From: Zobellia galactanivorans
GTDB lineage: Bacteria; Bacteroidota; Bacteroidia; Flavobacteriales; Flavobacteriaceae
Assembly (NCBI RefSeq): GCF_000973105.1
Contig: NC_015844.1
Span: 4,646,501-4,710,500, forward strand
Direction: 5' to 3'
DNA length: 64,000 nucleotides
The stretch's first letter is position 1, and each line of letters starts with the position of its first letter. Shown piece by piece: positions 3,336 through 63,834 of this stretch. Under the pieces are notes generated by a model that was given only the letters and a program-made list of their open reading frames with translations, had not been told where the DNA came from and searched no databases. The translations under genes and the position numbers were made by a program.

Positions 3336-4709
3336 ATGAAAAAAATTAAGAAATACTTACTGCTGCCCCTTATCATCTTTGGTTTAGGCTGCTCTTCCGA
3401 TAAGGAAGGGTTCAATGACGATGTTGCGGGCGATGAAATTCCGGAGGCCAAGGTAGAAGCTTCCTTCGACTATACGATTTCCGAGGAAGATCCTTATGCC
3501 ATTTTATTGGACAATGCCACGGAATCGGAGCGTGAGTATACCGCGGTTTGGGATTTTGGAAAGGGAGGCGAGAAAGTTGCGGACAAAGCGGGGCTCGAAG
3601 AAGTGCGTTACACGGAAACCGGCGAATACACGATTACACTTGAGGTAAGCAATGCGGCCGGGACTTCAATCGCCAAAAAAACGATAAAGGTAGACCAGCG
3701 GTATGGTGTCTGCCCTACCAGTGGTTGCGAGGACCTATCGGACAAGGGGCTAAAGGATGGGACGGATACCTTTAGCGTTGGGGTAATAACCCAATCGTAC
3801 CGAATTAACGAAGGAGGGAGCCACACTCAAGTATTGAAAAAGGAATTCAATAGTTTGACAGCGGAGTACGAGATGAAGATGAACATCATGTATCCCTCAC
3901 AAGACAGCTATGATTTTAGTGCGGGCGATGCCATTGTTGATTTTGCAGTGGCAAATGATATGTACGTTCATGGTCACGCCTTAATTTGGCATGAAGCCTC
4001 TCCCGATTGGGTAGAGAATTTTACGGGTAGCGATGCTGAATTCGAAAAGATGGTAGAAGACTATATTACCACGACCATGACGCGATACAAGGGTAAGGTA
4101 CGGTCTTGGGATGTCGTTAATGAAGCCGTGGACGAAAGTGCGGGCAATCCCTTAAGAAACTCGGTTTTTAGGCAAAGAATGGGGGACGACTATGTCAAAA
4201 AGTGTTTTCAGTTTGCCCGTAATGCCGACCCCGAGGCTATTTTGTTCTACAATGATTTCAATATAGCGGCCAGTTCCGGCAAGAGGGCGGCCATATTTGA
4301 TTTGGTGGATGACTTGGGAGATCTGATCGACGGTCTCGGGGCGCAAATGCACATTTCAATCGATAATCCTTCGGCCGAGGATATTCAAGCCGTGGTCGAT
4401 GGGGCCGTTTCAAGAGGATTGAAGCTGCACTTTTCGGAACTCGACATTCGCACCAACTTGGAGAACGACAAGAACCTATCTTCGCTATCCGCGGAAAAGG
4501 CCGCACGCCAAAAGGCCAAATTCAAGGAAGTGGTAAACATATACAATGCGGTTCCCCCTGAAAATAAATTTGGGATTACCGTATGGGGCCTTCGCGACAA
4601 TGAGTCTTGGTTGGTCGATTACTACGGTGTACCGGAATGGCCTTTGCTCTTCGATGGGAATTATAATAAAAAACAGGCCTATGATGGCTTTTTAGAGGGA
4701 TTGCAATAA
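3336..4709 (+). CDS. GH10 endo-1,4-beta-xylanase lipoprotein with PKD-like domain
   Basis: A GH10 glycoside hydrolase that would cleave internal beta-1,4 links of xylan with retention. From ATG 3336 the protein has 457 residues. The frame stays open 19 codons further upstream, but MKKIKKYLLL is the natural signal-peptide start. Lipobox GLGC places it on a membrane, probably the cell surface. Residues about 40-120 form a PKD-like beta sandwich (VWDFGKGGE, YTETGEYTITLEV). The GH10 barrel runs from about 135 to 455. The acid/base Glu is E263 in WDVVNEA and the nucleophile is E368 in HFSELDI; the conserved HGHALIWHE segment is present. It is followed 30 bases later by a second GH10 gene, so the two are probably co-transcribed. 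Confidence 0.93.
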   Translation: MKKIKKYLLLPLIIFGLGCSSDKEGFNDDVAGDEIPEAKVEASFDYTISEEDPYAILLDNATESEREYTAVWDFGKGGEKVADKAGLEEVRYTETGEYTITLEVSNAAGTSIAKKTIKVDQRYGVCPTSGCEDLSDKGLKDGTDTFSVGVITQSYRINEGGSHTQVLKKEFNSLTAEYEMKMNIMYPSQDSYDFSAGDAIVDFAVANDMYVHGHALIWHEASPDWVENFTGSDAEFEKMVEDYITTTMTRYKGKVRSWDVVNEAVDESAGNPLRNSVFRQRMGDDYVKKCFQFARNADPEAILFYNDFNIAASSGKRAAIFDLVDDLGDLIDGLGAQMHISIDNPSAEDIQAVVDGAVSRGLKLHFSELDIRTNLENDKNLSSLSAEKAARQKAKFKEVVNIYNAVPPENKFGITVWGLRDNESWLVDYYGVPEWPLLFDGNYNKKQAYDGFLEGLQ

Positions 4710-12232: not shown

Positions 12233-13078
12233 ATGGTAAACTACAACGGAGACCTTTTAGGAAAAAACACGAATTTTTTAAACCATAACAATCGCGGACT
12301 ACGCTATGGCGACGCTCTTTTTGAAACCATGAGAATGGTCGGGGGAAAGTTGTTCTTTTGGGAAGACCATTATCTTAGGCTTATGGCATCTATGCGTATC
12401 CTCCGTATGGAAATCCCTATGCATTTTACCATGGAATTTTTGGAGGAGGAAATCAAAAAGACCATTGCGGCCAACGAGGGTATAGGCGAACAGCTCCGGG
12501 TGCGATTGTCCGTCCACCGAAACGATGGCGGCCTCTACACCCCCTTAACCAACGATATTTCATATATCATCGAGGTAGCGCCCCTAAAAGAGGCCTTTTA
12601 TGTGGTAGACGAAAGTCCGTATGAAGTAGAACTTTTCAAGGATTTCTATGTGAATCGCGATATGCTTTCGACCCTAAAGACCAATAATAAGATCATTAAT
12701 GTGGTGGGTAGTATTTTTGCCGAAGAAAACGGCTATCAAAACTGTCTTTTGCTCAATAACGACAAACAGATCGTAGAATCATTGAACGCCAATGTTTTTT
12801 TGGTGAAGGATGGAAAGGTGAAGACCCCACCTCTAGAAGATGGTTGCCTGAACGGAATCGTGCGTAAAAAAATGATCGAGATACTTTCTAAACTCGAAAA
12901 TTTCGATTTTGAGGAAGCATCCATATCGCCCTTTGAACTACAAAAGGCCGATGAGTTGTTTGTAACCAATAGTGTAGTGGGCATACGCCCCATTACAAAG
13001 TACCGTAAAAAAGAATTTGGGAACAAGGTGGCCAAGGAGCTGCTGGGCAAACTAAATGCCATAGCAAGACTCGCATAG
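12233..13078 (+). CDS. Class IV aminotransferase family protein (PabC / branched-chain aminotransferase type)
   Basis: A fold-type IV PLP enzyme of 281 residues from ATG 12233. The frame extends 10 codons further upstream, through the terminator hairpin, so the later ATG is preferred. Motifs are NNRGLRYGDALFETMR near the N-terminus, the PLP lysine in STLKTNNKIINV (about residue 150), and LEDGCLNGIVRKK plus ELFVTNSVVGIRPI in the C-terminal half. Members are 4-amino-4-deoxychorismate lyases (folate synthesis) or branched-chain/D-amino acid aminotransferases; the sequence alone does not separate these reliably. Confidence 0.82.
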   Translation: MVNYNGDLLGKNTNFLNHNNRGLRYGDALFETMRMVGGKLFFWEDHYLRLMASMRILRMEIPMHFTMEFLEEEIKKTIAANEGIGEQLRVRLSVHRNDGGLYTPLTNDISYIIEVAPLKEAFYVVDESPYEVELFKDFYVNRDMLSTLKTNNKIINVVGSIFAEENGYQNCLLLNNDKQIVESLNANVFLVKDGKVKTPPLEDGCLNGIVRKKMIEILSKLENFDFEEASISPFELQKADELFVTNSVVGIRPITKYRKKEFGNKVAKELLGKLNAIARLA

Positions 13079-55918: not shown

Positions 55919-57481
55919 ATGACAAGTTTAAGGAATTATTTTTTGAATGGCGCCATCCTGTTACTGGTGTTGTCGGGCTGTAAGTCCAAAGAGGAAAAAA
56001 CGGTCGTAAAGGACGATAGTCCCAAGCAACCCAATATTGTCTTCATTTATATGGATGATTTGGGATATGGCGACCTAAGTGCATATGGCGCCACTGAATT
56101 GAGCACGCCCAATATCGATGCCTTGGCAGAGGGCGGTGTGCAGTTCACCAACGGTTATGCCACCTCGGCTACCTGTACGCCAAGTCGCTATGCCATACTC
56201 ACCGGACGCTATCCTTGGAGGAACAAAGATGCCAAAATACTTCCGGGCACGGCTCCTTTGATTATCAGTACCGATCAACTGACCGTTCCGAAAATGCTTA
56301 AGGAAAAAGGCTATACTACGGGTATCGTAGGTAAATGGCATTTAGGTCTGGGAAGCGGAAACGTAAACTGGAACGAAAGGGTTTCCCCTGGTCCAAATGA
56401 GGTTGGTTTCGATTATTCCTATATTTTGGCGGCCACTCAAGACAGGGTGCCTACCGTTTATATTAAAGATGGCCATGTTGACGGTTTAGATCCCAACGAC
56501 CCTATAGAAGTGAGCTACAAAGAAAATTTTGAAGGAGAACCTACAGGATTGGAAAACCCGGAATTGACTACAATGAAATGGCATCACGGTCATAACAACA
56601 GCATTGTGAACGGTATTCCACGTATCGGATATATGAAAGGTGGGGAAGCGGCAAAATGGAGCGATGTAGATATGGCCGACCACTTTTTGGCCAAGGCCCA
56701 AGCCTATGTTAAAGATCATAAAGACGAGCCCTTCTTTTTATACTACGCTTTGCAACAACCTCACGTACCGCGCACGCCACATCCACGATTCGCAGGAAAG
56801 TCGGGAATGGGTCCACGTGGCGATGTTATTCTTGAAGCGGATTGGGTTGTTGGTGAATTCATGAAGACCTTAGAGGAACAAGGTCTTTTAGAGAATACCT
56901 TAATCGTATTTTCCAGTGATAATGGCCCTGTGGTAAATGATGGCTACTATGATGATGCGGTAGAGAAGCTAGGAAACCACAAACCATCAGGTCCTTTGCG
57001 TGGTGGAAAATACAGCTTGTTCGACGCAGGTACACGCGTACCTTTTATTACATATTGGAAAGGCAAGATCGCTCCGGCCAAATCGGAGGCCTTGGTATGT
57101 CAGGTAGATTTACTTACCTCAATGGCCGCTTTGGTAGGTAGTGATAAAAAAGGCGAGGATAGCGAAAACTTTTTGGACGTCCTAATGGGGAAAAGCGACC
57201 AAGGTAGAACAGAATTGGTTTTAGAGGCGGGTTCAAGAACGGCTTTTAGAAAAGGGGACTGGGCCATGATCCCTCCTTATAAAGGTGCTGCCATAAACAA
57301 GCAGGTGAATATAGAATTGGGTAATGATAGTGAATATCAACTGTACAACCTTAAGGATGATATTGGCCAAACCAAGAACTTGGCCAAGGAAAACCCTGAA
57401 AAACTTCAGGAAATGATTCAAGGTTTTGAAGCCATAAGGGGAAAGAATGACGTTGAGATCAAAGAACTGGAGTTGAAATAA
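55919..57481 (+). CDS. Formylglycine-dependent sulfatase lipoprotein (type I)
   Basis: A 520-residue type I sulfatase with a lipoprotein signal (LLLVLSGC). The metal-binding N-terminus is NIVFIYMDDLGYGDLSAYGA. The modification site is CTPSR at residues 86-90, in which Cys86 becomes formylglycine. Later conserved parts are VGKWHLG, FFLYYALQQPHVPRTPHPRFAGKS and VFSSDNGPVVNDGYYDD. It removes sulfate from an exported or surface glycan. It ends the PUL 2 transcript; its probable terminator is now 4.7 kb away because of an IS insertion. Confidence 0.94.
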   Translation: MTSLRNYFLNGAILLLVLSGCKSKEEKTVVKDDSPKQPNIVFIYMDDLGYGDLSAYGATELSTPNIDALAEGGVQFTNGYATSATCTPSRYAILTGRYPWRNKDAKILPGTAPLIISTDQLTVPKMLKEKGYTTGIVGKWHLGLGSGNVNWNERVSPGPNEVGFDYSYILAATQDRVPTVYIKDGHVDGLDPNDPIEVSYKENFEGEPTGLENPELTTMKWHHGHNNSIVNGIPRIGYMKGGEAAKWSDVDMADHFLAKAQAYVKDHKDEPFFLYYALQQPHVPRTPHPRFAGKSGMGPRGDVILEADWVVGEFMKTLEEQGLLENTLIVFSSDNGPVVNDGYYDDAVEKLGNHKPSGPLRGGKYSLFDAGTRVPFITYWKGKIAPAKSEALVCQVDLLTSMAALVGSDKKGEDSENFLDVLMGKSDQGRTELVLEAGSRTAFRKGDWAMIPPYKGAAINKQVNIELGNDSEYQLYNLKDDIGQTKNLAKENPEKLQEMIQGFEAIRGKNDVEIKELELK

Positions 57482-57540
57482 TCGATTCTTAAACGGTCTT
57501 GTCTTTCGTGATTTTTATCGAAGGATACCTCACAGTTCAC

Positions 57541-57545
57541 CCATA
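57541..57545 (+). repeat. Outer 5-bp direct repeat, left copy (CCATA)
   Basis: CCATA directly precedes the first base of IS copy 1 and is matched by CCATA directly after IS copy 2. Confidence 0.75.
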
Positions 57546-58542
57546 ACCTGAGTTCGATTAATAATATTTGATTATTAGACAGCAAAAAAGATAGATTTTC
57601 AGTAAATTAAAGTGTTGAAATTCAATTTTTTAATCTAAAAATCTATCTATGATAATTTACTCTAAAGTTAGAAATTTTCTGTTTAGTCGATGAATTTTGT
57701 AAGGAATATGCTGAAGTAGTGGATAAAGCCCTTATTGGGAATAAAGCAAAGCGTCCTTCGATAATGTCTCAAAGTGAAATAATCACACTAGCAATTATTT
57801 TCCAATTAAGGGGTTTAGAACCTTTAAACACTTCTATGTAAAGACTCATATGAAAAATGATTTTCCTGCCACAGTTTCCTATAATAGATTTACAGAACTA
57901 ATGCAAGAGAACTTAATGGCTATGACTTTGTTTTTAAAAACCTGCTGTTTGGGTGATTGCTCTGGAATATCATTTATTGACTCTACTCCTGTAAGGGTCC
58001 GCAAGAATAAACGAATACACAATCATAAAGTCTTTAAGGGTATTGCTACTACTGGTAGGTCTACCATGGGTTGGTTTCACGGTTTTAAGTTGCACATTAT
58101 CATAAATGGCAAAGGGGAGATTTTAAACTTCACAATTACACAGGCTAACGTAGACGATAGGGAGCCATTAAAGAAAGAGCGGTTTCTAGACAAAATTTAC
58201 GGGAAGTTATTCGCCGACAAAGGCTACATAGGAAAAGATTTAATGCAGATGCTCTTTGTTGATGGCGTACACCTAATCACATCGGTTAGAAACAACATGA
58301 AGAATTCACTAATGACCATGAGTGATAAAATTTTACTTAGAAAACGTTCCGTAATAGAGACCGTCAATGATGAACTCAAAAATATCTGCCAAATAGAACA
58401 TTCAAGACATAGAAGCTTTGGTAATTTCTTGGTAAATATTATCGCAGGGCTTATTGCATATAGCTTCCTGCCAAAAAAACCAAGTATCAAATTTCAAACC
58501 ATAAAAACTAATCAAACAACTTTGTTTTAATCGAACTCAGGT
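57546..58542 (+). mobile_element. IS982-family insertion sequence, copy 1 (997 bp, defective)
   Basis: Terminal inverted repeats ACCTGAGTTCGATTAA (57546-57561) and TTAATCGAACTCAGGT (58527-58542) are perfect over 16 bases and start with ACC, as is usual for IS982. Compared with copy 2 it has a one-base deletion and a nine-base deletion near 57810-57840 and one extra A near 58477, so its transposase frame is broken. Confidence 0.92.
57649..58530 (+). pseudogene. IS982 transposase, broken copy
   Basis: The gene has lost its frame. In the frame that is open in copy 2 this copy loses one base near 57809 (TTAAGGGG instead of TTAAGTGGG) and then stops at TAA after LNTSM. The C-terminal part is still readable from 57850 and keeps the three catalytic acids: D in SFIDSTP, D in FADKGY and E in [10 protein letters not shown]. 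The product cannot be complete, so this copy could move only with transposase from another copy. Confidence 0.88.
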
Positions 58543-58547
58543 TTATA
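58543..58547 (+). repeat. Inner 5-bp direct repeat, left copy (TTATA)
   Basis: TTATA follows the last base of IS copy 1 and matches TTATA directly before IS copy 2 at 61195-61199. Confidence 0.75.
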
Positions 58548-58618
58548 GTAATTTGGTTTTACGACAAACTTCACTACTGCGGTTTGACCAAATCCAATAT
58601 CAATATGAGAAATTAATA

Positions 58619-60112
58619 TCAACGCATAACTAAACTAGAGCAAGTTAATTTATGACTTGAGATTTTGTTTGTTGATAGACTGTATTTTGCTTTGATTTTT
58701 TCCAACTTCTCACAATAACCTTGCTCAGCAAGCCAAATATCACCTCTATAAATCCGTTTAGGACCTGAGTCTCTATATTTTTGAATGATGATATTTATAT
58801 CCTCAGTAAACTCTTTGGCATAATATTCATCTTCTCCATTTGGTTCGTCCCAGTGTAGTTCAAACCTTGTAAGCACTTCTCCTAACTCCATAGAGCACCT
58901 TTTTTCTTTTATTTTTGCTCCTCCGCTTGCTGTAAGAATGTACATTCGCCATTTTAATGGATGATCTTTTATTTTTTCGCAAGCATTTATTAAATCTAAA
59001 AACATTTGATCACAATCAGGTATACTCCAACTTGATAAGGTAGTAAAATATGAATCTACCATTTCTCTTTTCCAAGACGTTTCTTCCCAGTATGTTAGAG
59101 GTGAACGTCTTAATTTTTCGCTTGTTACTTCTGATATAGCTTCGGGAGTTTCAGTAAGATAATCTGATGCGGTGATCATCCTAACATCCAATATAGAACC
59201 TGTCTTCCAATCATCAGAGTTTTCAATTATCTTGACAACTGTTTCGCCAAGTTCTTGTCTCAAAATTTTTAATGTTTCTGAAATAGAGAATAAACTAAAA
59301 ACATTGAACGAACACATAGGTTCTGAATAACCTGGTTCAAAGTGGATTCTAAATGAAACGCTAATCTCTCTAGGTAAATGATGGGCTTTCAAAAATGTTT
59401 TATTTGCTACACAAACTTTCAATTGGTTTTTTGACATTAATTTCAGACACCAACTTGCCGTAGATGGGGCTTCTATGACTTTCAAATTTAATTCTGTCAC
59501 TACACCTATTTCGGCTGCAGCACCGCCTTTTAAAGACCAAAGAATATCAGGATGAGAATGTTCATTTACGACTAATGTCTCTCCGCTCCAAAGAACTATT
59601 TTAGCACTTTCTACATGTTGACACCCAAGACCATACTTTTTACTAAGTATAAAGTCCCAACCTGCTGTAGTAAAATGTCCCCCAGCATGTACGTCAAAAC
59701 AATCACCATGAGGAAGAGCTTTATTGTTTTGATGAAGTAGGTATATTATTTTCCCTAAAATACATCCTGGCTGAAGAGAGATGATGTTTTCATTTAAATC
59801 ACAGTTATCCATCATAGATAAATTTATCATTATACCGTCACAAGAAGCGCCATTAAAATATCCATGTCCGCCAGATCTAACAGAAACCGAAGTATTCTCA
59901 TAAATTTCTAATGATGTTAATAAAGACAATACTCTGGCTACTCCCCAATCGCTACAAGGTGATACTACAATTTGAGGAATTATTGCTGCGCGATTATGCA
60001 TTTGAGAATACGTGGGGAAGTATTCTCCCTTAGTTTCTTCATATTTGATTCCTACTTTGTCAAGCTCCTTTTTTAGGAGTATTATCTTTTTATTATTTGA
60101 GGTGTTTTTCAT
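58619..60112 (-). CDS. FAD-binding oxidase of the berberine-bridge type with bicovalent-flavin motif
   Basis: A 497-residue protein from ATG 60112. A longer frame back to a TTG at 60238 overlaps the Rid gene and is not preferred. The PCMH-type FAD domain has VRSGGHGYFNGASCDG, with His83 as the first flavin link, and HGDCFDVHAGGHFTTAGWDF, with Cys138 as the second. Both residues are those that hold FAD bicovalently in BBE-like enzymes. The C-terminal BBE-like part reads GDIWLAEQGYCEKLEKIKAKY. Such enzymes oxidise alcohols, sugars or amines with O2. No signal peptide is seen. It is inside the IS-flanked cassette and follows the Rid gene by about 100 bases. Confidence 0.85.
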   Translation of the reverse strand: MKNTSNNKKIILLKKELDKVGIKYEETKGEYFPTYSQMHNRAAIIPQIVVSPCSDWGVARVLSLLTSLEIYENTSVSVRSGGHGYFNGASCDGIMINLSMMDNCDLNENIISLQPGCILGKIIYLLHQNNKALPHGDCFDVHAGGHFTTAGWDFILSKKYGLGCQHVESAKIVLWSGETLVVNEHSHPDILWSLKGGAAAEIGVVTELNLKVIEAPSTASWCLKLMSKNQLKVCVANKTFLKAHHLPREISVSFRIHFEPGYSEPMCSFNVFSLFSISETLKILRQELGETVVKIIENSDDWKTGSILDVRMITASDYLTETPEAISEVTSEKLRRSPLTYWEETSWKREMVDSYFTTLSSWSIPDCDQMFLDLINACEKIKDHPLKWRMYILTASGGAKIKEKRCSMELGEVLTRFELHWDEPNGEDEYYAKEFTEDINIIIQKYRDSGPKRIYRGDIWLAEQGYCEKLEKIKAKYSLSTNKISSHKLTCSSLVMR

Positions 60113-60215
60113 TTGGATGTTTATTGTTAAGTTAAATGTTAAAGCCCTGTAATTTGGTTGCAGATATAATATATAGAGTGGTATTAATGAAGCGATAAAA
60201 ATTCCTATAGCAATA

Positions 60216-60626
60216 TTATTTATTTGTCTTAAAAGCAATCGCGTCTATCTCAACCTGCATAGCGTCTAGAGCTAACCTTGGGACGGGGATTAATGTGCTA
60301 GCAGGGTAAATTTTATTTGTCCAAAATTCACTCATTTCTTCACTCCAAATTTTTAATTTTTCTTCATTATGATTAACAATCAGTACGGTAATTTTAACAA
60401 TGTTTTCAGGTTCTAGGTTATATTCGTCTAGTACAATTTTAATATTTTTTAGAGTAAATTGTAATTGAGTTCTAAAGTCACTTGAAAGGGTATGATCTAA
60501 ATCTTGATCACCACCTTGTCCAGAAATGAAAATGTATTCACCATTGGAAGGCGATTTTACAGAATGACAAAAACCATAAGGTGTTGGATCAAATAGTTGT
60601 TTTGGGTTTGTGTGTGTTTGGTCCAT
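60216..60626 (-). CDS. Rid (YjgF/YER057c) family protein lacking the RidA arginine
   Basis: A 136-residue protein from ATG 60626; the longer frame to 60818 has no conserved content. Family features: DPTPYGFCHSV, ISGQGGD, and the C-terminal VEIDAIAF. In RidA proper, which hydrolyses enamines and imines such as 2-aminoacrylate, the ligand carboxylate is bound by Arg in PARS. Here the segment is YPASTLIPVPRLA, so that Arg is Ser. Rid groups without this Arg do not act on 2-aminoacrylate, and their substrate is open. It is the first gene of the two-gene unit in the cassette. Confidence 0.85.
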   Translation of the reverse strand: MDQTHTNPKQLFDPTPYGFCHSVKSPSNGEYIFISGQGGDQDLDHTLSSDFRTQLQFTLKNIKIVLDEYNLEPENIVKITVLIVNHNEEKLKIWSEEMSEFWTNKIYPASTLIPVPRLALDAMQVEIDAIAFKTNK

Positions 60627-61194
60627 AATAATTGTTGATAACATTATTAAATGAATGCTTAAAATTAATGTTTTACAAGTGTATATCTGCACCCCTATTC
60701 CCCAATGGCCACAAGGTTTATGTACCACTACCCATACAGGCTCGTAACTTTTCAACCCTAGCTTTTTCTTTATCACCTTGGTAGAAAATCTTTTCTTAGT
60801 AACACTCATCAGAAACATAGTCTTATACCATACAAAAATGAAAGATTAGAACTCTACATAATCGTACCACTAAGCAACGAAGTCCGAGAACAACACTTCT
60901 TGCACTCATAACTCCAACGGCTCTTTTTCCAATAATACTCAGTATGGGAGAACTGAGAGAAGAAACATATACCTTATCTCCACTCTTGCTTAAAATGATT
61001 CCTCGCTATCAAAATGAGCGGTAAAACTAAAGATATTCATTAGTTTATTTTTTTATACAATTTAGTATTGTGCACTTGAATTGTTATAAGTAAATTTAAA
61101 GAAGCATTAAGAGAAATAATATACCTATAAATAACGATTTTTGAATAGTGATTTATAAGGGTAACATATTGTGGTTTATCCTTGTTTTTTTACT
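60627..61194. other. AT-rich region upstream of the Rid gene, no gene recognised
   Basis: About 570 bases lie between the Rid start and IS copy 2. Only short frames occur; one plus-strand frame of 26 codons (MGELREETYTLSPLL, start near 60943) has no known match. The promoter of the Rid-oxidase unit must lie here on the minus strand. No plasmid origin, repeat array or replication gene is visible. Confidence 0.45.
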
Positions 61195-61199
61195 TTATA
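61195..61199 (+). repeat. Inner 5-bp direct repeat, right copy (TTATA)
   Basis: TTATA directly precedes IS copy 2 and matches 58543-58547. Confidence 0.75.
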
Positions 61200-62205
61200 A
61201 CCTGAGTTCGATTAATAATATTTGATTATTAGACAGCAAAAAAGATAGATTTTTAGTAAATTAAAGTGTTGAAAATCAATTTTTTAATCTAAAAATCTAT
61301 CTATGATAATTTACTCTAAAGTTAGAAATTTTCTGTTTAGTCGATGAATTTTGTAAGGAATATGCTGAAGTAGTGGATAAAGCCCTTATTGGGAATAAAG
61401 CAAAGCGTCCTTCGATAATGTCTCAAAGTGAAATAATCACACTAGCAATTATTTTCCAATTAAGTGGGTTTAGAACCTTTAAACACTTCTATGTTTTCTA
61501 TGTAAAGACTCATATGAAAAATGATTTTCCTGCCACAGTTTCCTATAATAGATTTACAGAACTAATGCAAGAGAACTTAATGGCTATGACTTTGTTTTTA
61601 AAAACCTGCTGTTTGGGTGATTGCTCTGGAATATCATTTATTGACTCTACTCCTGTAAGGGTCCGCAAGAATAAACGAATACACAATCATAAAGTCTTTA
61701 AGGGTATTGCTACTACTGGTAGGTCTACCATGGGTTGGTTTCACGGTTTTAAGTTGCACATTATCATAAATGACAAAGGGGAGATTTTAAACTTCACAAT
61801 TACACAGGCTAACGTAGACGATAGGGAGCCATTAAAGAAAGAGCGGTTTCTAGACAAAATTTACGGGAAGTTATTCGCCGACAAAGGCTACATAGGAAAA
61901 GATTTAATGCAGATGCTCTTTGTTGATGGCGTACACCTAATCACATCGGTTAGAAACAACATGAAGAATTCACTAATGACCATGAGTGATAAAATTTTAC
62001 TTAGAAAACGTTCCGTAATAGAGACCGTCAATGATGAACTCAAAAACATCTGCCAAATAGAACATTCAAGACATAGAAGCTTTGGTAATTTCTTGGTAAA
62101 TATTATCGCAGGGCTTATTGCATATAGCTTCCTGCCAAAAAACCAAGTATCAAATTTCAAACCATAAAAACTAATCAAACAACTTTGTTTTAATCGAACT
62201 CAGGT
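61200..62205 (+). mobile_element. IS982-family insertion sequence, copy 2 (1006 bp)
   Basis: It has the same ACCTGAGTTCGATTAA ends as copy 1 and the same orientation. It differs from copy 1 by a few substitutions and three small indels and keeps the longest transposase frame. It probably represents the functional form, apart from the N-terminal frame problem shared by both copies. Confidence 0.93.
61373..62167 (+). CDS. IS982-family transposase (copy 2), N-terminus in doubt
   Basis: From GTG 61373 the frame gives 264 residues with the DDE acids in [20 protein letters not shown] and [10 protein letters not shown]. Upstream, the same frame encodes the IS982-like N-terminus [20 protein letters not shown] but has no ATG or GTG before a stop at 61307. 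The natural ATG (61303) is one frame off and ends after 14 codons ([14 protein letters not shown]). So either translation begins at GTG 61373, a +1 shift joins the two, or the gene is damaged. Both IS copies share this state. Confidence 0.82.
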
Positions 62206-62210
62206 CCATA
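62206..62210 (+). repeat. Outer 5-bp direct repeat, right copy (CCATA)
   Basis: CCATA directly follows IS copy 2 and matches 57541-57545. Confidence 0.75.
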
Positions 62211-62216
62211 ATACAT

Positions 62217-62276
62217 ACCGTTCCTAGTGTAGAAGCTGTTCTTTTTCAGTATTTTGTACTAGGAACGGTTTTTTGT
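62217..62276 (+). terminator. Intrinsic terminator, probably the original one of SusCD locus 2
   Basis: ACCGTTCCTAGT (62217-62228) pairs with ACTAGGAACGGT (62258-62269), followed by six Ts. No plus-strand gene ends nearby other than the IS transposase; with the insertion removed, it would lie about 80 bases after the sulfatase stop. Confidence 0.72.
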
Positions 62277-62424
62277 TATCCAAAAAAAATCGATATTTGC
62301 CCCATCATGAAGTTATAGAAATTATGTTTCGTATAGATGTCGTTAGGCCTTTGTCCTAAATTAATCGAACCTTCTTCGTTCGGTTTTGACATGTCTTCCT
62401 TTTTTCAACATAATTTCTTTTCAA

Positions 62425-63834
62425 ATGCCACATATAAATAGAATTACCTTAAAAAGACTGTTTCAGCACTTTATCGTTGCCGTTACGGGCAAAGAAACAG
62501 AGTTTACTTCCGGAAGCATCCGTAAGGCCATTTTTATGCTTTCCATCCCCATGATCTTGGAGATGATGATGGAGTCTATTTTCGCCATTGTAGATATTGC
62601 CTATGTTTCACAGGTAAGTGTAAATGCCGTCGCCACCATTGGTCTGACCGAATCGGTAGTGACCTTGGTCTATGCCGTTGCCATAGGACTTAGCATGGCG
62701 GCAACGGCCATAGTAGCCCGAAGAATAGGGGCGAAGGATGTAAAGGGCGCCCAAGAAGCGGCGGTGCAGGCCATAGCCTTGGGTGTCTTGGTTTCGCTTA
62801 TAGTCGGGGTACTAGGGTTTATATATGCCAAGGATATTCTGGCCTTAATGGGGGCGGAACCCGACTTGATAGCCGAAGGCTCCGGTTATACGAAACTCTT
62901 GTTGGGCGGTAACATCACCATTTTGCTATTGTTCCTGATCAACGCCATATTCAGGGGGGCAGGCGATGCTTCCGTGGCCATGTGGGCCTTGGTGCTTTCC
63001 AATGGACTCAATATTATTCTAGACCCCGTATTTATTTTTGGTTGGGGGCCTATACCGGAGTATGGGGTCATGGGGGCGGCCATAGCTACCAATATTGGCA
63101 GGGGAGCGGCCGTTGTGTTTCAATTGGCGGTCTTGTTCTTTGGTTGGAGCCGAATACAGATCGGGTTTAAGGACATGGTAATCCGTTTTGGGGTAATGCT
63201 CAACCTTGTAAAGGTATCGCTCGGAGGTATCGCCCAATTCCTGATAGGTACATCCAGTTGGGTATTTCTCATGCGGATGATGTCGGAATTTGGCAGTGAG
63301 GTCTTGGCAGGCTACACTATAGCCATTAGGGTCATGCTGTTTACTTTGATGCCCTCTTGGGGGATGAGCAATGCAGCGGCAACCCTAGTGGGCCAAAACC
63401 TTGGGGCGAAACAGCCCGATCGCGCGGAAACCTCGGTTTGGAAGACGGGAAAATACAATGCCTGGTTTATGGGCATTGTTTCTTTGGTCTACCTCTTCTT
63501 TGCATATGATATCGTAGGTTGGTTCAATACGAATCCTGTAGTGGTTGAAAATGGCGGTCTATGCCTTCAGATTATAGCGGTGGGCTACGTGTTCTATGCC
63601 TATGGCATGGTCGTGACCCAAGCTTTTAACGGGGCAGGTGATACCGGTACACCGACCAAACTGAACCTTATTGCTTTTTGGTTGTTTCAGTTGCCTTTCG
63701 CCTATTTAACGGCCATTGCGTTTCAATGGGGGGCAATGGGCGTATTCGTCGCCATTACTGCCGCAGAGATACTATTGGCCGTCATCTCTATGGTGTGGTT
63801 TAAAAAAGGGAAGTGGAAAAAGGTCAGTGTCTAA
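62425..63834 (+). CDS. MATE-family multidrug/toxin exporter
   Basis: A 469-residue inner-membrane protein from ATG 62425; a TTG 39 bases upstream would extend it. It has two homologous sets of six helices. The N-terminal set includes IRKAIFMLSIPMILEMMMESIFAIVDIAYVSQ and IGLSMAATAIVARRIGAKD. The second set begins VKVSLGGIAQFLIGTSSWVFLMRM and includes SNAAATLVGQNLGAKQPDRAE, and NGAGDTGTPTKLNLIAFWLFQLP lies near the end. MATE proteins export cationic compounds against Na+ or H+. It is unrelated to the insertion next to it. Confidence 0.94.
   Translation: MPHINRITLKRLFQHFIVAVTGKETEFTSGSIRKAIFMLSIPMILEMMMESIFAIVDIAYVSQVSVNAVATIGLTESVVTLVYAVAIGLSMAATAIVARRIGAKDVKGAQEAAVQAIALGVLVSLIVGVLGFIYAKDILALMGAEPDLIAEGSGYTKLLLGGNITILLLFLINAIFRGAGDASVAMWALVLSNGLNIILDPVFIFGWGPIPEYGVMGAAIATNIGRGAAVVFQLAVLFFGWSRIQIGFKDMVIRFGVMLNLVKVSLGGIAQFLIGTSSWVFLMRMMSEFGSEVLAGYTIAIRVMLFTLMPSWGMSNAAATLVGQNLGAKQPDRAETSVWKTGKYNAWFMGIVSLVYLFFAYDIVGWFNTNPVVVENGGLCLQIIAVGYVFYAYGMVVTQAFNGAGDTGTPTKLNLIAFWLFQLPFAYLTAIAFQWGAMGVFVAITAAEILLAVISMVWFKKGKWKKVSV

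Follow-up and report, generated by a model that had tools for sequence, protein, structure and literature searches.

Crossed 5-bp repeats around an IS982-bracketed module in Zobellia galactanivorans, a possible trace of an IS-bearing circle fused with the chromosome

The stretch of the Zobellia galactanivorans chromosome analysed here (64,000 nucleotides; the window) carries, between a sulfatase gene and a MATE gene, two insertion sequence (IS) copies in the same orientation that bracket a short acquired module (Table 1). The ends of both copies could be placed exactly and read ACCTGAGTTCGATTAA...TTAATCGAACTCAGGT. The transposase belongs to the IS982 family (NF033520, 7.4e-80, 268 bits versus a cut-off of 130), which the cited part of the family review describes as elements of ~1 kb with inverted repeats that have 5' AC ends and a DDE transposase (PMC7335449); in length and in their ACCTGAGT... 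ends the window copies agree with that description, and we saw no structural difference from it. Neither copy has a full-length transposase frame when compared with the 300-302 codons of R7, L038 and L040, and an internal start or a programmed frameshift may operate in these genes. Here and below, L0 and R0 denote the two window ISs (left and right, respectively), and L7 and R7 their counterparts in Zobellia uliginosa. Over 996 aligned bases L0 and R0 show 4 substitutions; one 9-bp indel and two 1-bp indels also separate them, and they have in common a 2-bp deletion near the 5' end. A search of the genome itself at E<=0.001 returned these two full copies, two minus-strand matches within the hairpins of those copies, and no further match. 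The host of this imported, IS-bracketed module is a seaweed-associated marine bacterium.

Table 1 Features of the IS982-bracketed locus, in window positions
Feature	Position	Strand	Details
Raised-identity block versus Z. uliginosa, probable interspecies recombination tract	57105..62668		edges set by eye
CCATA, outer left repeat	57541..57545	+	identical in Z. uliginosa (L028)
IS982-family copy, left	57546..58542	+	997 bp; 9-bp and 1-bp deletions; longest open frame 250 codons
Inner TTATA, to the right of the left IS	58543..58547	+	TTATA in Z. uliginosa too
Module between the ISs	58543..61199		2657 bp; 33.1% GC vs 43.1% for the window
FAD-binding oxidoreductase gene	58619..60112	-	497 aa, PF01565; open in both species
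RidA/Rid-family gene	60216..60626	-	136 aa from internal ATG; PF01042
IS1595-like element fragment	60678..60916		ISBbi1-like, 70.7% over 239 bp
Inner TTATA, to the left of the right IS	61195..61199	+	TCATA in Z. uliginosa
IS982-family copy, right	61200..62205	+	1006 bp; longest open frame 285 codons
CCATA, outer right repeat	62206..62210	+	identical in Z. uliginosa

The module occupies the identical site in Z. uliginosa, and the IS-module-IS unit is known from this site only, in two of the nine genus genomes; the IS is absent from the other seven. A close copy of the module FAD gene is likewise present in 2/9 genomes and in none of the seven IS-free congeners. In six of these the spacer between the sulfatase and MATE genes is short (~250-270 bp), and the seventh (G001) has another insert, of ~1.1 kb, at the site. 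Since seven of the nine genomes do not contain the IS and six of those have the short spacer, the outer CCATA pair is supported as the mark of one insertion event at one CCATA site. The first-pass annotation had called for such a comparison of empty sites; the exact CCATA empty site was not found, the spacer left of the IS being unalignable base by base with the six insert-free congeners, and no site with a single IS was found in the genus genomes compared. These data also bear on a history in which two ISs inserted independently into a pre-existing gene region and their repeats mutated afterwards. The right-copy repeats of Z. uliginosa, TCATA and CCATA, are indeed one base apart, but the six short spacers and the different insert in the seventh congener imply that the DNA between the ISs was itself added, and the outer 5-mers do not differ between the two species; we regard this history as disfavoured and very improbable.

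A single target duplication surrounds the whole IS-module-IS unit, CCATA on both sides in both species, and the inner repeats are TTATA/TTATA in the window versus TTATA/TCATA in Z. uliginosa. The first-pass annotation had described this crossed arrangement, and both its reading of the repeats and the logic it drew from them, that independent insertions would not cross their repeats, hold at the exact IS ends. However, its probability of one in a million for the two matches was overstated, and crossed 5-bp repeats need to be weighed against the target preference of the IS. We examined 38 end pairings of related IS copies, a subset of the copies listed, for target duplications, and recovered 15 perfect 5-bp, three 6-bp, one 8-bp, one 4-bp and one 3-bp duplications, with none in the remaining 17; where a duplication was visible it was mostly 5 bp of the form T...A. 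All 15 perfect 5-bp duplications have this form, although genome G359 supplies five of them and G677 three, so that they do not count as independent. Because of this preference, different copies have coinciding flanks 5-9% of the time: left and right 5-mers agreed in 60/1122 comparisons (5.3%) among the 34 copies with unambiguous ends, four pairings of the nested locus L129 being omitted, and in 18/210 (8.6%) among the 15 copies with a perfect 5-bp duplication. The inner match alone is therefore at a chance level of ~5-9%, not 1/1024. A matching outer pair is expected whenever a unit inserts in one event. As a whole, the crossed pattern is not attributable to chance, since none of 561 pairs of related copies was doubly crossed. 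TTATA has a probability of 7-10% under the IS target matrix and is among the usual targets of the group (it occurs in L125), whereas this matrix gives TCATA a low probability; the inner repeat was therefore more likely TTATA ancestrally. CCATA departs from the usual targets, with C in first position in 0/15 duplications.

An ordinary composite (compound, class I) transposon with its ISs in direct repeat resembles this locus in having two same-family ISs around passenger genes within one outer target duplication. In that case the module would have lain between two independently inserted IS982 copies in a donor, and the unit would have transposed once into CCATA, the inner TTATA match being a coincidence aided by target preference. 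This history accounts fully for the outer repeat, and the inner-match frequencies and the TTATA probability given above, as well as the TCATA of Z. uliginosa, are in keeping with it. Against it, such a transposon would have matching inner repeats only through a coincidence at the 5-9% level; the shortening of both transposase frames is a further departure from it, and a donor with two insertions was not found in limited searches. We consider it a possible origin, though a less probable one than the fusion of a circle.

The topology that best fits the crossed ends is the fusion of an IS-bearing circle with the chromosome, which we favour moderately over the composite transposon. The starting circle would have carried a single IS982-family element, flanked by a TTATA duplication, together with the FAD-oxidoreductase gene, the Rid-family gene and the IS1595 fragment, and would have fused with the chromosome between the sulfatase and MATE genes. 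It could have inserted replicatively (copy-in) into an empty CCATA site, or RecA could have recombined it with an IS that occupied a CCATA site beforehand. Both routes would leave an IS copy at each end, CCATA outside and TTATA inside. The exact crossed repeats, the absence of double crossings elsewhere, the restriction of the IS to two copies in its own genome, and its absence from seven genus genomes, six with a short spacer, speak for this reading, as does the matrix preference for TTATA over TCATA. There is also precedent in IS26, for which the cited part of PMC4894685 describes how a circle that carries an IS joins beside a resident one, so that the resident repeats end up outside the whole structure. 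The likeness to an IS26-type translocatable unit or cointegrate is one of outcome; the window transposase is of the IS982 family and not IS6, the sequences do not indicate a transposase-driven conservative reaction, and RecA recombination would give the same outcome. Copy-in cointegration is likewise not established for the IS982 family, whose mechanism the cited part of the review describes as not yet unravelled (PMC7335449); a circle, if demonstrated, would provide a concrete gene-capture route for this family.

Against the circle stand the 5-9% chance of the inner match, the TCATA of Z. uliginosa, the atypical CCATA target and the failure to find a donor, a circle or a single-IS site. In addition, neither the module nor the extra DNA of Z. 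uliginosa, the latter inspected by open frames only, contains a recognisable replication gene. The circle size of about 3.7 kb proposed by the first-pass annotation is right for the window, where IS plus module amount to 3654-3663 bp, but in Z. uliginosa they reach ~4.1 kb, its module being 3141 bp versus 2657 bp, with a 471-bp indel between the species. This indel and the IS1595 fragment indicate that the module has been rearranged, as would be expected if a larger plasmid or other circle of undefined size had fused via IS982 and then been mostly deleted, and the missing replication gene would fit such a remnant as well. However, the 471-bp change could run either way between the species, the best plasmid relatives of the FAD protein are only ~43% identical and come from Mesorhizobium, and no plasmid record spans most of the module; we view this remnant history as quite improbable.

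Searches for a donor, a circle or its joint covered genus, family, phylum, plasmid and viral sequences and yielded none of these. With the FAD protein as query, genome contigs gave one relative, in Z. uliginosa (six exact peptide patterns, sensitive to close relatives only), and 395 phylum genomes gave nothing at E<=1e-60 besides the two Zobellia species themselves; within the genus, both G003 and Z. uliginosa contain an FAD match of 32% identity at another place in the genome. Module DNA compared with 397 family genomes, scoring only two candidates per genome, produced outside the two species IS1595-like matches, one Rid-gene match (66% over 376 bp, G323) and short matches. Viral contigs gave no match. 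Ten plasmid records matched the module, eight through the IS1595-like part and two through a short FAD-gene match. The two best plasmid FAD relatives, those of Mesorhizobium, adjoin other ISs, and the gene table for those stretches, which is incomplete, lists no Rid gene; they are therefore uninformative on circular order. A diverged repeat elsewhere in Z. galactanivorans (G000:C1:3564656) and in Z. uliginosa (G007:C24) continues uninterrupted where the right IS would lie, and its continuation has TTTGGTTT in common with the sequence flanking the left IS on its right. We dropped this resemblance as evidence for a circle joint because controls score equally and it is not significant: its anchored score of 3 was reached by 21/208 window TTATA sites and 458/5254 module 25-mers.

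Independently of any fusion, the bracketing ISs kept recombining after arrival. The 2-bp deletion common to L0 and R0 is missing from L7, R7 and six related copies aligned. In the 5' part, a segment whose edges were picked after the difference positions were known, L0 and R0 show 0/307 differences, versus 4/307 between L0 and L7 and 6/307 between L0 and R7; over the whole IS they show 4/996, versus 13/887 between R0 and R7 outside an inverted stretch. Since the common deletion is absent from the sister copies and the likeness exceeds that of orthologous copies, it is well supported that L0 and R0 recombined with each other and were homogenised in the window lineage. L7 and R7 differ at 6/310 positions, no fewer than across species, a count that speaks against homogenisation in Z. 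uliginosa, where a short shared tract alone hints at it.

We regard the IS982 pair as an ordinary but unusually well documented scar of mobile DNA and not a new kind of system; its value is as a compact case that combines the evidence of target duplications, empty spacers and a sister species. A broader scheme, in which an IS982-family element, like IS26, turns small non-replicating circles into IS-bounded modules, the module spreads among marine Flavobacteriia by flank recombination, and repeated looping out and back keeps the ISs alike, appears improbable to us. Exchange of this particular module is another matter: its identity between Z. galactanivorans and Z. uliginosa (98.8%) is higher than that of its surroundings (~93%), so that it was probably exchanged as a block between Zobellia lineages by recombination through the flanks. 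Five windows within the module range from 98.2 to 99.6%, and 55 windows outside it have a median of 92.6%, a 99th percentile of 97.1% and a highest value of 98.0%.

The two IS982-family copies in the window have exact ends (terminal sequences ACCTGAGTTCGATTAA / TTAATCGAACTCAGGT), and each carries CCATA on its outer side and TTATA on its inner side, confirming the boundaries and the crossed repeats of the first-pass annotation, with the element ends falling exactly where it had placed them. NF033520 and DDE_Tnp_1_3 place their transposase in the IS982 family, and a search of the window genome returned no further copies of the element at E<=0.001. The 2657-bp module between them has a GC content of 33.1% vs 43.1% for the window. 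The best plasmid relatives of its FAD oxidoreductase, at about 43%, are on Mesorhizobium plasmids and adjoin other IS elements; this is possibly a travelling gene.

Features of the IS pair, the module and a diverged intergenic repeat (G000, genome holding the window; G007, Zobellia uliginosa DSM 2061)
Feature	Position	Strand or orientation	Remarks
Left IS982-family copy	57546-58542	same as right copy	exact ends
Right IS982-family copy	61200-62205	same as left copy	exact ends
FAD-binding oxidoreductase gene	58619-60112	minus	497 residues
Rid-family gene	between window ISs	minus	
IS1595-like element fragment	between window ISs		
Diverged intergenic repeat copies	window 61111-61197; G000:C1:3564656-3564724 and 526842-526904; G007:C24:199-287 and 12670-12741		

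The first-pass annotation had put the chance of two matching 5-base repeats near one in a million, a figure that does not survive the target preference of this IS group. Among related IS copies from genomes within the same family and order, 15 of 38 end pairings had perfect 5-bp duplications and 17 had none visible; all 15 duplications began with T and ended with A (TAATA four times; TTTTA, TATAA and TAAAA twice each; TTATA and four others once each). A matrix of this preference puts the probability of a match between two independent sites at 0.03-0.06, and the observed match rates between flanks of different copies were 60/1122 (5.3%) for 34 copies and 18/210 (8.6%) for the 15. Doubly crossed repeats occurred in none of 561 pairs of related copies. 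CCATA is itself an unusual target (~0.003-0.03% under the matrix). Given these match rates and the lack of double crossings among the 561 pairs, the outer CCATA match is strong evidence of one insertion event.

The annotation had read this event as an IS-bearing circle fusing with the chromosome at the CCATA site. That a single insertion took place is supported, but any composite transposon would also yield matching outer repeats, and such a unit remains a rival source of the IS pair and module. The argument for a circle is the inner TTATA match, which the observed rates make worth a factor of about 12-19, slightly less given the TCATA seen at one module end in Z. uliginosa. Because the matrix makes TTATA a frequent target (7-10%) and TCATA a rare one (0.3-0.6%), the original inner repeat was more likely TTATA. 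From topology, a circle formed when two ISs recombined and looped it out of a chromosome, or when an IS attacked DNA close by, would carry a single IS with two different flanks; with matching inner repeats, the IS must have entered DNA that was circular or in tandem copies beforehand. On balance we lean towards fusion of an IS-bearing circle, and regard a composite transposon as possible but clearly less probable. No replication gene was recognised among the open frames inspected in the module or in the 471 bp that Z. uliginosa has in excess of the window (profile searches covered the longer frames). Either the putative circle was not a plasmid or it has lost its replication part; a larger circle that fused and later lost a part seems improbable. 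None of these routes is new in kind. A review of the IS982 family describes its transposase mechanism as "yet to be unravelled", and its main text does not contain the words 'composite' or 'circular' (PMC7335449).

Z. uliginosa has this module too, inserted at the same place between the sulfatase and MATE genes, with the left IS cut down to 480 bp, a right IS of 1000 bp, outer repeats CCATA and CCATA, and inner repeats TTATA and TCATA. Its additional 471 bp lie between the FAD and Rid genes (~3898-4368 of its locus, L028; window ~60168). The other seven of the nine genus genomes lack both the IS982-family element and a closely similar FAD gene (G003, another Zobellia, has a 32% match). In six of these seven the sulfatase-MATE spacer is ~250-270 bp; in the seventh, G001, it holds ~1.1 kb of unrelated insert, and the spacer is thus an insertion-prone place. 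Read by eye, the G001 insert (L029, G001:C1:4338200-4339600) contains a protease-like frame. The insertion's right flank is clearly homologous to the short, empty spacers of the six relatives. Its left flank cannot be matched to them base for base, so the empty site's one CCATA is deduced rather than seen.

The module is too similar between the two species. We scored the 66 500-bp windows with enough syntenic alignment: five inside the module were 98.2-99.6% identical and a sixth, at 96.1%, includes the inverted hairpin of the right IS, whereas for 55 outside it the median was 92.6%, the 99th percentile 97.1% and the highest value 98.0%. The module alignment has 33 differences in 2657 bases, plus 484 gap columns, and the stretch holding the IS1595 fragment is 98.4% identical. 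The FAD gene differs at 6 codons by synonymous and at 8 by replacement changes, out of 488, and gives no sign of strong constraint as the cause. Raised identity extends into the flanks, where 57105-57481 differs by 2.4% and 62386-62668 by 2.1%, against 10.3% and 11.3% just outside, with block edges picked after inspection of the data. In seven outgroups the left flank segment is not slow (17.6-26.3% vs 17.9-20.4%) and the right one is (11.3-15.3% vs 20.5-23.2%). Segments farther out are fairly similar again (4.3% and 3.8% difference), and the neighbourhood is therefore a mosaic. The simplest account is that homologous recombination in the flanks carried the block from one Zobellia lineage to another, in which case the shared site need not go back to the species' common ancestor.

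The two window ISs are also more alike than expected from divergence since arrival alone. Over the 5' part (alignment columns 1-44 and 119-394, without the inverted stretch) they show 0/307 differences, whereas the left copy differs from the sister copies at 4/307 and 6/307; over the full length they differ at 4/996, and the right ISs of the two species at 13/887 outside the inverted stretch. A 2-bp deletion close to the transposase start occurs in both window copies and is absent from both sister copies and from six aligned relatives. The plain reading is that the bracketing ISs recombined in the window lineage, through gene conversion or looping out and back. For Z. uliginosa the case for homogenisation is weak: two bases are common to both copies and not found in the six relatives, but overall the copies differ at 6/310, no fewer than copies do across species. 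A 9-bp deletion in the window left IS and the Z. uliginosa right IS falls within a short direct repeat and may have two separate origins.

A diverged intergenic repeat of ~60-90 bp occurs three times in each of two Zobellia genomes and had no match in the remaining seven. In the right IS of Z. uliginosa, a hairpin close to the 5' end (AGATAGATTTTTAG...CTAAAAATCTATCT) has its interior (L028 5453-5512) in inverted orientation when set against the other three copies. A second inverted repeat, at L028 ~1844-1906 in its left IS, reads by eye AGTAAGTTA/TAACTTACT vs AGTAAATTA/TAATTTACT in the window, both arms having changed together as if the hairpin were being preserved or one arm had served as template for the other.
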